A stretch of 42,464 nucleotides of DNA from a virus. A program made the translations under genes and the position numbers. Location of the stretch: positions 1-42,464 of IMG/VR virus record IMGVR_UViG_3300002835_000386; one strand, 5' to 3'. Each line of letters starts with the position of its first letter. Within the stretch, counting starts at the first letter, position 1. The notes beneath the pieces are model-generated. The model saw only the letters and a program-made list of their open reading frames with translations, was not told the DNA's origin and ran no database searches. This document shows, piece by piece, positions 14,719 through 42,464 of this stretch.

Positions 14719-14766
14719 TTTGTTTTGTTTTTGTTGTGTGAAATATCGTTTGTTTCTTTCGATATG

Positions 14767-14794
14767 TAAATATACAAAGTAATATTTAAACAAA
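14767..14794 (-). promoter_or_regulatory. Promoter C (minus strand)
   Basis: On the minus strand, a TTTG -33 box (14791-14794) is 16 bases from TATATTTA (14767-14774), a TAnnTTTG-like -7 box. Upstream lies the TATTTACAAAAATAAAT box (plus-strand reading) shared with promoters at 16.6 and 21.1 kb. An inverted repeat ATATCG/CGATAT (14743-14748 and 14760-14765) falls at the expected 5' end of the transcript. Confidence 0.7.
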
Positions 14795-14825
14795 AAAATA
14801 TTTACAAAAATAAATACAAAATAAT

Positions 14826-15668
14826 TTAAAATTCGTCTCTTTTGCCTTTCAATGGGTAATGGTTCTTTTTCAACTCCCAGAACTCAGCCATTAACGAGGC
14901 GCGAAACTTGTAATCCCTGTCCGTGTGATACCCTGATTTGTACACGCATTTACAAATGCTTTCGTACAACCTTATGCCTTTCAACTTGTAATTTGCCTTT
15001 TTACAGGCGGCGTACCTTCCAGAATTTAAAACGCCTGCCCAAAGCTTCATCCCTTCTTCCGTGGTACTTGCACTCATGAACTTGGCGCGAATGTATTTGT
15101 CACGTCCGCGAATGACCTCCCGTGTTTTGTAAGTTACGGACTTTTGATTTTTCAAAGCCTTCACGCCTCCAGCGTTGGCGTGCTTGCGCCAAAGTTCGGT
15201 TTCAACGCCTGAAGTCGTCGCCTCAATAATGAAAAATGAATAGATCATGGACACTGGGAAGTCGGTCAGGTGATGTACATTCATTAACATTGATTCGTAT
15301 GAATACGCAAGCCATATACGACGCATTTTAAATAAGTCAATTTTGTCAAGGTTTCTGAATCCTTTGCCTTCCAGATTTCGCCTTAATTCATGTATATTCA
15401 TTTTTCGTATTTCCCAGCCGTATGAACGTGAGCCATAAGCCAATTCGTTGACTTCGCCTTTTTCTTCCTTTGCAGGAAATGTAAGCGTGGTAATTTTGTG
15501 AACATACACGGTGTCCCTCTCAATGATGGGAACGAATGAGGTATATTGATATTGGGTATTGATCGGGGAATAAATCAACCCAACCACGAAGGCAACGCCA
15601 ACACCTGCGGCAACTTGGTACGGAAGGCGCTTGTTTTGAGGTACATAATCAATGATTTTGTCTTTCAT
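14826..15668 (-). CDS. Membrane-anchored glucosaminidase-like (GH73/lytic transglycosylase-type) protein
   Basis: A 280-aa protein with one N-terminal membrane anchor (about residues 18-33) and an extracytoplasmic C-terminal domain. Residues 138-170 (SMIYSFFIIEATTSG, then LWRKHANAGGVK) resemble the GH73 motif with catalytic Glu (here Glu149) and an 'N-FGIK'-like element. A late YKSGYHTD segment matches the family's 'YATD' region. It probably cuts the peptidoglycan glycan strand. It is separate from the holin-amidase cassette, and its role in lysis or entry is unclear. Confidence 0.55.
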   Translation of the reverse strand: MKDKIIDYVPQNKRLPYQVAAGVGVAFVVGLIYSPINTQYQYTSFVPIIERDTVYVHKITTLTFPAKEEKGEVNELAYGSRSYGWEIRKMNIHELRRNLEGKGFRNLDKIDLFKMRRIWLAYSYESMLMNVHHLTDFPVSMIYSFFIIEATTSGVETELWRKHANAGGVKALKNQKSVTYKTREVIRGRDKYIRAKFMSASTTEEGMKLWAGVLNSGRYAACKKANYKLKGIRLYESICKCVYKSGYHTDRDYKFRASLMAEFWELKKNHYPLKGKRDEF

Positions 15669-16577: not shown

Positions 16578-16596
16578 AATTGGTTGTTTTGTTACG

Positions 16597-16624
16597 TAAA
16601 TTTAATATTAATTATTTGAATAAA
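16597..16624 (-). promoter_or_regulatory. Promoter B (minus strand)
   Basis: TTTA at 16621-16624 is 16 bases from TAAATTTA at 16597-16604 on the minus strand. It is nearly identical to promoter A for over 50 bases (16593-16645), including the TATTTACAAAAATAAAT upstream box. It lies 20 bases before the RadC-like gene. Confidence 0.7.
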
Positions 16625-16712
16625 AAAATATTTACAAAAATAAATAAAAAAAAATGTCCGCATCGAAGGACACGGACACAAAAGAACACTTTAACAACTT
16701 ACTACTTCACAT

Positions 16713-21072: not shown

Positions 21073-21101
21073 GATAATTGGTTTTTGTTATTTTCAATAC
21101 G

Positions 21102-21129
21102 TAAATTTAAATATAATTATTTGAATAAA
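21102..21129 (-). promoter_or_regulatory. Promoter A (minus strand)
   Basis: TTTA at 21126-21129 is separated by 16 bases from TAAATTTA at 21102-21109 on the minus strand. The whole region 21098-21150 is nearly identical to 16593-16645 (promoter B) and shares its upstream box with promoter C. Confidence 0.7.
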
Positions 21130-21151
21130 AAAATATTTACAAAAATAAATT

Positions 21152-21185
21152 AAAAAAAAAGTGAGGCATAATTTCTATGCCCCAC
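21152..21185 (-). terminator. Intrinsic terminator
   Basis: GTGAGGCATA (21161-21170) pairs with TATGCCCCAC (21176-21185) with one mismatch and a five-base loop. Minus-strand transcripts then read a run of nine U. It ends the unit that finishes at 21210 and stands directly before promoter A. Confidence 0.85.
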
Positions 21186-22993: not shown

Positions 22994-23974
22994 TTAATCT
23001 TCAAACTTTGCCATTCTTTCGGCTAAAAGTTCTGCTAATCTATCATTATACGCCTTGTCCTTTGCGGCTGGGCTTGTCGTTTGATACGCGGTAAATATCT
23101 TTGAAGCTTGGGAGTAAAGGTTGGCTATTGTGAAATTTGCCCTCAGCCATTTGTCATTCAATGACCACGCGGCTTGGATAAACACCTTCAATGCCTCAAG
23201 GCTATTGCCCTGCTTATCTATTTTGTCAATGTATTGCATAAGGTTTTTCATTTGCCCTGCATCTTTTGGCATCATTATGTAATGTCCGTTCTGGTCGGTT
23301 GGATACGCGGCACCCGATAACGCTTCAAACGTTTGGCAAAACACGGTGAAGGCGGCGTAAGTGGGGGAGGGCTGGCGGTCGGCTCGGGGTTCATTTTCTT
23401 TTTCTTTTTTTCGCCTGCTTTTTTCTTTTTCTTTTTCAACAAGGGAAACTAAGGTAAACGGGTTTAGTTTTGCCTTTGGTTCACTTGTAACTTTTGTAAA
23501 ATCAATAAATTCATTTTCTTCGTTTGTCATAAATACATTAGTATTTATATCTATAATATTATCTATTGTACTATTATTCTTTGTATTATTATATGTCGGA
23601 TTTATTTCCGTGTTTCTTCGGATTTTTTTCCGAGGTAAGTCGGATTTATTTCCGAGGTTTGTTTTAGCACTGTTCCAAAGTTTGCCTTTTTCTGTTATCA
23701 TGATGCAATCTTTTTCACCGAATTTCTGCCAATCAATAACCCCTTTTAATTGTAATGACTTATAAAGCCTATAAATTGTGTCCGCTTTATCTGTTATAAT
23801 AGGCATTTCATCAATGGCTTTATTCCTACTTGCAAAGAACCACGTTTGCCCGTTGACGTGTATTTGTTCAGCCCAGGCTGGAAGGGAATAAATGAAACTA
23901 AACAAGGCGGCTTCGCTCAGGCTTAAATTCCATTCTATGCTATGTGTTTGGTCTATTGATATTGTGTATCTCAT
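22994..23974 (-). CDS. Putative replication initiator with winged-helix N-terminus
   Basis: A 326-aa protein. Residues 1-100 resemble a winged helix: LSLSEAALFSFIYSLPAW, then DKADTIYRLYKSLQLKGVID, then a wing and MITEKGKLW. A long polar, charged linker (about 130-200, rich in Lys and Glu) leads to a helical C-terminal domain. This plan matches phage replisome organisers and DnaD/DnaA-like initiators that recruit the host helicase. Iterons in or near this gene might mark an origin. I saw none clearly. Confidence 0.6.
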   Translation of the reverse strand: MRYTISIDQTHSIEWNLSLSEAALFSFIYSLPAWAEQIHVNGQTWFFASRNKAIDEMPIITDKADTIYRLYKSLQLKGVIDWQKFGEKDCIMITEKGKLWNSAKTNLGNKSDLPRKKIRRNTEINPTYNNTKNNSTIDNIIDINTNVFMTNEENEFIDFTKVTSEPKAKLNPFTLVSLVEKEKEKSRRKKEKENEPRADRQPSPTYAAFTVFCQTFEALSGAAYPTDQNGHYIMMPKDAGQMKNLMQYIDKIDKQGNSLEALKVFIQAAWSLNDKWLRANFTIANLYSQASKIFTAYQTTSPAAKDKAYNDRLAELLAERMAKFED

Positions 23975-23975
23975 T

Positions 23976-24458
23976 TTAATCTATTTTATTTAAATTAGCA
24001 AATTCACCATGATACTTAATTGCGGCTTCGTTGTATGCACGGGCGGCATCTATTATATTTTCAAAACTTCCAATATGAATATTTACGCCATTACTCATTA
24101 TTCTTGATTCATAAATTTTATGATTTTTGTGCCAACTAACACCCTTATATCCTGAATTATTGTTAATTTGTTTAATCCTATTCATACTATTTTGGGAATA
24201 AGTGCAAACTCTTAAATTACATTTCCTATTATCTAATGTGTTGCCATTTAAATGATCAACAACTAATCCTTTTGATGGATTCATAATAAATCTGTGCATT
24301 AATAATTGTGCAACAAATTTTTTATTTTCACGATGATTTCTAATGGCATAAAATTTACCAGATAGATTATTTGCATACCATTTCCATTGTATTAAATAAT
24401 CGTACATGTCATCATCTACCAATGCGACTTTCCCCTGTGTTAACTGAATTTCTTTCAT
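23976..24458 (-). CDS. HNH homing endonuclease with AP2 DNA-binding domain
   Basis: A 160-aa protein. Residues 67-83 form the HNH core (VDHLNGNTLDNRKCNLR, His69 and Asn residues). Residues 102-157 are an AP2-type domain (SGYKGVSWHKN, then IGSFENIIDAARAYNEAA). This is the usual free-standing phage homing endonuclease design. It is AT-rich and sits two bases upstream of the initiator gene in the direction of transcription. It may be a recent insertion. A structured leader precedes it. Confidence 0.88.
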   Translation of the reverse strand: MKEIQLTQGKVALVDDDMYDYLIQWKWYANNLSGKFYAIRNHRENKKFVAQLLMHRFIMNPSKGLVVDHLNGNTLDNRKCNLRVCTYSQNSMNRIKQINNNSGYKGVSWHKNHKIYESRIMSNGVNIHIGSFENIIDAARAYNEAAIKYHGEFANLNKID

Positions 24459-24461
24459 GAG

Positions 24462-24569
24462 TTATAAAAATGAGAACGCCCAACAGGTGCAGCTATTGGG
24501 CGTAAATGAAACAAAAAAATAGTTTGTTTCAATATCCTTTGAATGGGCTGCACTCCGTCCGAAGGATAT
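24462..24569 (-). promoter_or_regulatory. Three-hairpin structured leader with possible kissing loop
   Basis: Read on the minus strand, three perfect 8-bp hairpins follow one another: 24562-24569 with 24532-24539 (22-base loop), 24523-24530 with 24508-24515 (seven-base loop), and 24496-24503 with 24476-24483 (12-base loop). The first and last loops hold GTGCAGC (minus strand, 24547-24553) and GCTGCAC (24487-24493), which are fully complementary and could form a kissing interaction. It ends four bases before the HNH start codon. It may be a regulatory RNA structure, and I know no matching riboswitch class. Confidence 0.6.
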
Positions 24570-24570
24570 G

Positions 24571-24578
24571 TAAATATA
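24571..24578 (-). promoter_or_regulatory. Possible promoter D, -7 box
   Basis: TATATTTA on the minus strand, followed by CATATC exactly as in promoter C, with an 18-base identity between the two sites (24565-24582 and 14761-14778). No clear TTTG -33 box lies 16 bases upstream, so strength is uncertain. It would start the structured leader and the HNH transcript. Confidence 0.45.
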
Positions 24579-25319: not shown

Positions 25320-25414
25320 TAACAAGGTCGGGAATCGAACCCGATTGTGCACCGCTCAACGTTGGGTAGCTTGCGTACACGGTTAGCCCTGGCGATACCT
25401 TTCGCCACCTTGCT
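25320..25414 (-). tRNA. tRNA-like element, atypical anticodon arm
   Basis: On the minus strand AGCAAGG at the 5' end pairs with CCTTGTT at the 3' end (7 bp), followed by an unpaired A and no encoded CCA. A perfect five-pair T-arm encloses TTCGATT (GGTTCGATTCC motif). TGGCG, GGTA and a three-pair D-stem follow the acceptor, and the start resembles bacterial tRNA-Leu. A 5-6-pair variable-type stem (TTGAGC/GCACAA) is possible. However, no normal 5-bp/7-base anticodon arm fits the roughly 27 bases available, so the anticodon is unresolved. It may be degenerate, unusual or a decoy. Confidence 0.45.
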
Positions 25415-25491
25415 TTGGTGCAAGTGAAGGAATCTAATCTTCGTCTTTTTGCCGTCGCAAAACATTTTAAACACTAAACTAACTTGCGTCA

Positions 25492-40876: not shown

Positions 40877-42259
40877 ATGACATACGCCGATTATCCAGAT
40901 GCTGCAAAGAACAACGCACGACGCGCACTTGACCACAAAGAAAAGAATGGTTCAGATTGCGGCACGCTTGTTGGCTGGCAACGGGCAAATCAAATTGCCA
41001 ATGGTGAAGGCTTATCGGAAGAAACGGTTCAACGCACCTATTCATTTTTAAGCCGCGCGGAAACGTATGACCAAGGGAAATACTTTGATGAAGATGGTTC
41101 GGAGATTTGCGGCTCAGTAATGTACGACGCATGGGGTGGAAGTGCCATGAGGGATTGGGCTGAGGCAAAGTACAAGGCGATACAAAAGGACAAAGCAAAA
41201 AACATGGCAAAAGTAAGTATAGATATTTTAGGGGAAATTTCGGAATCGGTTAATTCTTACAACTCGGTAAGAACTAAAATTAACCAGGCGAACGGGCAGC
41301 CAATTAATTTGACAATATCATCGGGAGGTGGCAGCGTCACTGAAGGCATGGGTATTGCTGATTTAGTTGCTAATTACCCGGAAGAAACCACGGCAACAGG
41401 AATCGGCTTGGTAGCAAGCATTGCAACGGTTGTACTGTTGGCGGCTGACAATGTAAAGATGACTGAAAACGCCTTCATGATGATTCATCGCCCTTGGAGT
41501 TACACGATGGGTAACGCCGACGAGCTTGAGGCAACGGCTGAATTATTGGACAAGATGGAGGCAAAGTTACTTGACATTTACACGGCTTCGGTTATTAAAC
41601 GCAAAGGAGACCAAAAGAACCTAAGAGAAATTATTACGAATATGATGGCAGCCGAAACATGGCTGACCGCTCAGGAAGCATTAGAATTTGGCTTCATTGA
41701 TGAAATTGTGAAAGTTGGCGAAAAAAACATAGATATGTTACCGTTGCAAAATAGCCTAAACAAGTTCTTAAATGTACCAGCCGCATTATTAAACAATACA
41801 AAAAAAGAAGATGAAATGGGTAGTTCTATTTTAGAAAAAATCAAAAGCCTTCTTAATAGCATAGACGAAACTCCCACCGTGGAAAATGTTATTGAGGAGG
41901 AAAAAGTAATGGAGGAGGAGCCAAAAAACGACGAGGTGGAAGTTGCTATTTCCATGCTCAAAGAAAAAGGCTACTTTGTATTATCACCCGATGAAATGGA
42001 GACAATGCACTCGAAGCAAAAAGAGGAAATGGAATCAATGTACAAGAAAACCGAAGAACAAAAGAACTCGATTACTGAAATTGAATCGGTTCTTGAAACA
42101 TTGGGCAATGAATTAGTCGCACTTAGGGCGCAAGTTAAAAAAGGCGTTGGACTTCCTTCGGGCGGTTCGGCGCACGAAAAGGTTCAGGAAACAAAAGCGA
42201 AATCGAGTTACTTTGATTCTTTCGCTTCATTAGTTCAAACTAAAATCTCACAAAGATAA
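40877..42259 (+). CDS. ClpP-like capsid maturation protease fused to N-terminal domain and scaffold
   Basis: A 460-aa protein in three parts. Residues 1-100 form a domain (SDCGTLVGWQRANQIANGEG, then YDAWGGSAMRDWAE) known in many phage proteins but of unknown role. Residues 110-280 are a ClpP/S49-like protease: SGGGS at 149-153, catalytic Ser181 in GLVASIAT, His204 in MMIHRP, and an acidic residue (Glu260) near the third position. Residues 281-460 are Glu/Lys-rich, scaffold-like. It precedes the decoration and capsid genes, so it should cleave and assemble the procapsid. Confidence 0.88.
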   Translation: MTYADYPDAAKNNARRALDHKEKNGSDCGTLVGWQRANQIANGEGLSEETVQRTYSFLSRAETYDQGKYFDEDGSEICGSVMYDAWGGSAMRDWAEAKYKAIQKDKAKNMAKVSIDILGEISESVNSYNSVRTKINQANGQPINLTISSGGGSVTEGMGIADLVANYPEETTATGIGLVASIATVVLLAADNVKMTENAFMMIHRPWSYTMGNADELEATAELLDKMEAKLLDIYTASVIKRKGDQKNLREIITNMMAAETWLTAQEALEFGFIDEIVKVGEKNIDMLPLQNSLNKFLNVPAALLNNTKKEDEMGSSILEKIKSLLNSIDETPTVENVIEEEKVMEEEPKNDEVEVAISMLKEKGYFVLSPDEMETMHSKQKEEMESMYKKTEEQKNSITEIESVLETLGNELVALRAQVKKGVGLPSGGSAHEKVQETKAKSSYFDSFASLVQTKISQR

Positions 42260-42464
42260 TGGCAACAGCAAACGTTAATGGTTTTCTCGATTCAAACACA
42301 TACATCGGGCAAAACAGCTTAAATCGCACCAACCCGTATGCAAATGCAAATGGAGTAAACGCGGAGCAATTATACGGTATCGATACCTTTGAGGATCGCA
42401 TTCCCGTATCATTCACTTATGGCACTTCCTCAGCTGGAAAGCGTTTGAACTTTGCACCGTTGAC
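41684..42464. repeat. Terminal overlap, right copy
   Basis: The second copy of bases 1-781, joining the window ends into a circle. It carries A at 41770 where the left copy has G at 87, so at least two variants were present in the reads or one base is an error. Confidence 0.95.
42259..42464 (+). CDS. Decoration/head protein, 5' part only (3'-truncated copy)
   Basis: The first 68 or so codons of the gene fully contained at 576-1040, present because the ends overlap. Its ATG overlaps the protease-scaffold stop, just as at 576. Confidence 0.9.
   Translation, partial: MATANVNGFLDSNTYIGQNSLNRTNPYANANGVNAEQLYGIDTFEDRIPVSFTYGTSSAGKRLNFAPL

Follow-up and report, generated by a model that had tools for sequence, protein, structure and literature searches.

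The three-hairpin RNA upstream of the HNH endonuclease gene in the virus record IMGVR_UViG_3300002835_000386 is, on comparative sequence evidence, a conserved 5'-leader belonging to the replication operon of phages that infect Bacteroidota rather than an accessory of the HNH gene. In the window, that is, the whole analyzed stretch of 42,464 nucleotides to which all coordinates below refer, the leader is located on the minus strand between the methyltransferase gene and the HNH-AP2 gene. The three hairpins (24569-24476, minus strand) have a promoter of the Bacteroidota type on one side and a start codon on the other; read 5' to 3', the order is the TATATTTA promoter element, hairpin 1 (HP1), hairpin 2 (HP2), hairpin 3 (HP3), a U-rich stretch and the start codon of the HNH gene:

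24571-24578, minus strand: promoter -7 element TATATTTA of the Bacteroidota TAnnTTTG type; the predicted transcript start is at or adjoining HP1
24532-24569, minus strand: HP1, ATATCCTT/AAGGATAT, a perfect 8-bp stem (24569-24562 with 24539-24532)
24547-24553, minus strand: kissing element X, GTGCAGC, in the HP1 loop; its partner is 24487-24493
24507-24531, minus strand: HP2, TGAAACAAA/TTTGTTTCA, a perfect 9-bp stem (24531-24523 with 24515-24507)
24476-24503, minus strand: HP3, terminator-like, ACGCCCAA/TTGGGCGT, a perfect 8-bp stem (24503-24496 with 24483-24476)
24487-24493, minus strand: kissing element X', GCTGCAC, in the HP3 loop, a 7-bp Watson-Crick match to X
24459-24475, minus strand: U-rich tract plus the spacer that leads to the start codon, with position-specific T enrichment in the leaders
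23976-24458, minus strand: first gene, an HNH_3 + AP2 endonuclease of 160 aa; its start codon is 17 nt after HP3
22994-23974, minus strand: second gene, a mosaic replication-initiator-like protein of 326 aa, assigned by the PHROG matches of its homologs

An earlier reading, made from the sequence only, described three perfect 8-bp stems, which holds for the outer two, the middle stem having 9 bp. The 7-bp complementarity of the two loops that it pointed out, GTGCAGC with GCTGCAC, is an exact Watson-Crick match and covaries in relatives. The window leader has a minimum free energy of -37 kcal/mol (z = -5.6; none of 200 shuffles is equally stable), and HP3 was called terminator-like by a terminator scan (11 pairs, 6 of them G-C). 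This single-sequence folding statistic is outweighed by far by the comparative evidence. Relatives of the HNH gene in viral contigs have the same layout with different loops. Compensatory changes, the absence of which among homologs had been named as an argument against the element, are present: unguided RNAalifold analysis of 17 leaders returned exactly this kissing helix and nothing else, with double changes in 6 of the 7 pairs. When 27 sequences are aligned, each of the 7 pairs of the kissing helix shows double-sided changes, 98.9% of the cells are paired and one-sided (G-U) changes are absent; in HP1, 7 of the 9 pairs covary and 95.5% of the cells are paired. In this alignment, the only long, near-universal helices are HP1 and the kissing helix; HP3 appears weaker (77.5% paired) through misalignment, its variable length making it less cleanly aligned. 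The full structure of the 27 leaders scores above each of the 500 shuffles and every slid control (covariation score 0.547 vs 0.197 shuffled and at most 0.164 slid). A stem at the HP2 position is found in all 70 leaders of the family described below (best-stem score of at least 4), with altered yet still pairing arms such as TGAGGAA/TTTCTCA. The RNA element is close to certain and does not represent a chance arrangement.

The stem cells contain 56 G-U combinations vs 8 A-C, which implies selection on the sense-strand RNA, read in the direction of the gene; the HP3 cells of the 70 leaders contain 19 G-U and no A-C. The same asymmetry argues against a role at the DNA level, in which the inverted repeats would serve as a replication origin, a recombination joint or a homing site in double- or single-stranded DNA. 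Such a role would fit the adjoining initiator gene and the exchangeable gene cassettes flanked by leaders, but the leader is co-directional with the start codon at a nearly fixed distance, and the kissing sequence does not follow the swapped N-terminal type of the initiator. We consider a DNA-level element very improbable.

The family was delineated with a covariance model, R1, which was built without the kissing pairs and run over whole phage records and over 80 loci retrieved via the downstream initiator protein. This search yielded 70 distinct leaders, some of which had been part of the R1 training set. All 70 contain a kissing helix of 6-10 uninterrupted Watson-Crick pairs, with 24 different kissing sequences, and loops crossed between leaders with different X form at least 6 pairs in 2.5% of cases. 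The order of the elements (promoter, HP1, HP2, HP3, start codon) is fixed, and HP3 lies 12-19 nt from the start codon in 64 of the 70 leaders. A TAnnTTT[G/A]-like promoter motif is located 0-6 nt 5' of HP1 in every leader, which agrees with the earlier reading as a leader RNA and places the element at the predicted 5' end of the transcript. With nearly no single-stranded 5' tail left by this arrangement, the 5'-terminal kissing fold could guard the replication mRNAs against 5'-end-dependent decay, HP3 being merely the last part of the fold. Such protection would leave the conserved U tract and the fixed spacing to the AUG unexplained, and one strong hairpin would suffice for it; we regard it as quite improbable. 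Of the 73 leader-bearing loci, 32 have two or more leaders, whose loops always differ. The 14 loop combinations found within genomes are all distinct, with none shared, which is statistically indistinguishable from chance (p = 0.22), and orthogonality of the loop codes within a genome is therefore not claimed. Three loci taken as leaderless (L003, L005 and L006) do possess a leader, one small gene further upstream.

Outside the phages, 395 host genomes from the phylum of a Bacteroidetes MAG gave one weak match only; neither this match nor the locus L352 has a kissing pair, and both are taken as chance. Matches of an unbiased scan with the HP1 pattern were mostly due to chance, the true members belonging nearly all to the same phage group; an early, loose descriptor yielded many false pairs and was superseded. 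The leader has no match in Rfam 15, either at the gathering threshold or at E-values up to 5, consistent with the sequence-only reading, in which no known riboswitch family with this layout was recognized. A metabolite riboswitch, for which the location in a 5' UTR beside a terminator-like hairpin would be suitable, is barely credible given that the 27-sequence alignment has no invariant unpaired core, the loop residues being among the most variable parts, and that neither Rfam nor the searched host genomes contain the element.

The genes that follow the 70 leaders encode, directly, a replication initiator in about 20 cases, an HNH-AP2 protein in 11, and a protein from a group of 289-424 aa, several of them methylase-like, in 16; the remainder are small or other genes. 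In the HNH cases, the initiator mostly begins within a few nucleotides after the HNH gene. The HNH protein of the window matches Pfam HNH_3 (8e-9), AP2 (4e-7, below the AP2 cutoff) and a PHROG of HNH endonucleases (4e-41). The homologs of the window's initiator-like protein match the PHROG families of replication initiation proteins, O-like proteins or DnaD-like loaders; the window's own copy matches only two PHROGs, both of unknown function. This protein (22994-23974, minus strand) and its homologs are mosaic, several unrelated N-terminal domains being attached to a nearly constant C-terminal half. The tie to the HNH gene drawn in the initial interpretation is too narrow, and an HNH-specific element is rejected, as only 11 of the 70 leaders precede the HNH family and as cultured phages show the architecture directly at the replication operon. 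The proposed role as a homing target likewise finds no support because leaders occur both with and without HNH genes.

The three-hairpin layout is present upstream of the initiator in the cultured Flavobacterium phage FCL-2 (CATCCAC/GTGGATG) and in the cultured Parabacteroides phage PD691P4 (CTACCACC/GGTGGTAG), in both cases within largely unrelated sequence. A generic descriptor had a single match in each of FCL-2, PD691P4, elemoF and the window, always at the replication operon, in a scan in which control descriptors also matched a few times; no match was found in B124-14 and F116, and a single weak match in PT33, away from replication genes, is taken as chance. Over all loci, descriptor matches scoring at least 22 numbered 89 for the inverted arrangement, the majority of them members of the R1 family, vs 1 direct and 5 reversed controls. 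The loops of the elemoF relatives are GTGGAGG, CCACTAC, GGAGAGAG and GTGAGATG; the complement of each is found in the HP3 loop, the kissing pair having changed compensatorily. For elemoF, FCL-2 and two elemoF relatives, the replication protein has matches in PHROG replication-initiation families; the only matches of the PD691P4 protein are to PHROGs of unknown function, namely the two that the window copy also matches. Scans for relatives with the FCL-2 and PD691P4 initiators added almost no new loci. The sequence TAAGATATT between HP1 and HP2 is common to the FCL-2 (L479) and PD691P4 (L480) leaders, the rest of which is mostly different, and hints at their common descent. Among 86 regions upstream of HNH genes, 32 have a kissing-type layout, against a shuffle expectation of 0.2, and the main family accounts for most of these 32. 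Looser analogs are located upstream of HNH genes in further phages of Bacteroidota (L111, L117, L142, L149, L157 and L214). In these analogs, pairing takes place between a segment close to the 5' end and the loop of the hairpin adjoining the start codon, and hairpin 1 is small or absent in some of them.

Between HP3 and the start codon, at positions -16 to -7, T accounts for 0.66-0.94 in 65 leaders, vs 0.12-0.38 in 233 other genes from the same contigs, which are A-rich at these positions; ordinary initiation regions of Bacteroidetes, including F. johnsoniae, are A-enriched at -14 to -11 (PMC6847099). The succession typical of an intrinsic terminator, a stable hairpin followed by a U-rich tract, is thus represented by HP3 in the window and by the T enrichment in the 65 leaders. 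A U tract that comes right after a stable hairpin and replaces the usual initiation context points to termination, and attenuation is accordingly the favored interpretation: we put at about even the chance that the leader is a transcription attenuator in which HP3 is the terminator, tuned by the HP1 loop through kissing. Under this scheme, the RNA would start at HP1, as set by the TAnnTTTG-type promoter motif, and HP3 with the U-rich tract would form an intrinsic terminator immediately 5' of the start codon, so that a fraction of the transcripts would stop at the U tract, giving RNAs of roughly 110 nt. HP1 would be folded before the HP3 loop emerges, and its loop could capture that of HP3 ahead of the synthesis of the HP3 3' arm; kissing would then delay closure of the terminator, and the polymerase would continue past it into the replication genes. 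That kissing favors read-through is inferred from this order of folding. Kissing and the HP3 stem are not mutually exclusive, in contrast to the situation in classical attenuators, and this compatibility means that the sequence is consistent with either anti-termination or pro-termination. The U tract of the window (TTCTCATTTTTAT) is interrupted, and the window terminator may be weak; the tract might also serve for S1 binding instead of termination.

Translational control is the main rival of attenuation, although we consider it somewhat unlikely. In this case, the kissing complex would fold the 5' UTR such that the U-rich stretch before the AUG is exposed or shielded, acting as a switch or an enhancer by analogy with ColIb-P9 repZ. 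The end of HP3, 12-19 nt from the AUG in 64 of the 70 leaders, coincides with the edge of the ribosome footprint, and, in F. johnsoniae, structure within the region from -20 to +20 tunes translation (PMC6847099). However, the ribosome-binding site and the AUG are unpaired in every conserved structure, and the U tract displaces the A-rich sequence that favors initiation, which is unexpected for an enhancer. A translation switch and 5'-end protection, both suggested in the sequence-only reading, are possible.

Several systems resemble the phage leader in part. The put RNAs of phage HK022 are located upstream of distant terminators and act on the polymerase. Like these and nut-like antitermination RNAs, the leader described here consists of phage early leader hairpins that could promote read-through, but the terminator-like hairpin is itself one of the kissing partners. 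Kissing between RNA I and RNA II of ColE1 involves loops of about 7 nt and is intermolecular, with an antisense RNA. The phage leader shares the loops of about 7 nt that are paired over their full length and vary between replicons, whereas its pairing is intramolecular. In ColIb-P9 (IncI-alpha), translation of repZ depends on a pseudoknot in its leader, and the antisense Inc RNA prevents this pairing (PMC8383071). The phage leader similarly has a conserved long-range loop pairing just before the translation start, ahead of an initiator gene that it would control; unlike the repZ leader, it comprises two full hairpin loops that kiss, followed by a U-rich tract, and no antisense promoter was found. 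As far as the TAnnTTTG type is concerned, opposite-strand promoters are not in excess, being present within 100 nt in 1.4% of the leaders vs 8.6% of control stretches. The pT181 attenuator employs an antisense RNA (RNAI) and an anti-terminator that ties up the 5' portion of the terminator stem (PMC4878617). A hairpin loop recognized by kissing and an intrinsic terminator before the downstream gene are common to pT181 (PMC4878617) and, putatively, the phage leader; in the latter, unlike pT181, the kissing partner is in cis and there is no conserved alternative pairing, the consensus fold of the 17 leaders containing no alternative helix that would act as an anti-terminator exclusive with the HP3 stem. 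A literature search for kissing leaders in phages, in which subscription journals were thinly covered, found nothing on point, and this cis leader, which heads a replication gene and has a new architecture, is apparently undescribed.

A more speculative extension of the attenuation scheme is that the released leader RNAs compete in trans for the same loops, so that expression would drop as phage copies build up. Such competition would explain the private loop sequence of each leader. The leader would then be a protein-free copy-number sensor of phage replication in which kissing in cis permits read-through and released leaders compete in trans, a possibility that we consider unlikely. If it is true, the private loop code would insulate each replication operon from its neighbor and from co-infecting phages, analogously to plasmid incompatibility groups, without an antisense RNA. 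More generally, a covarying structured RNA heads the replication operon in several groups of Bacteroidota phages, cultured ones included, which makes the control of DNA replication in these phages directly testable. The leaders are possible regulatory parts for Bacteroidota, a phylum with few of these, and exemplify loop-loop pairing that is maintained while the sequence turns over fast.

Several other features of the window are of note. Upstream of the methyltransferase gene, there are two tandem tRNA-like stretches (25329-25488, minus strand): 25418-25488 has an Rfam tRNA score of 38.4 bits, and the adjacent 25329-25416 has, by eye, a T-arm and an acceptor-like end. Neither was called by ARAGORN; a related tRNA-like pair is found at L286:494-689, and these stretches are possibly unusual or degenerate phage tRNAs. 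Positions 1-781 and 41684-42464 are direct repeats (781 bases, one mismatch), so that the record probably represents a complete genome of about 41.7 kb that is either circularly closed or terminally redundant. An AT-rich repeat of 78 nt is present in three copies (14750-14827, 16580-16657 and 21085-21162), with a promoter-like sequence on the minus strand, and the 28-nt stretch that holds the leader promoter is 89% identical to the promoter-like site at 14761-14788.
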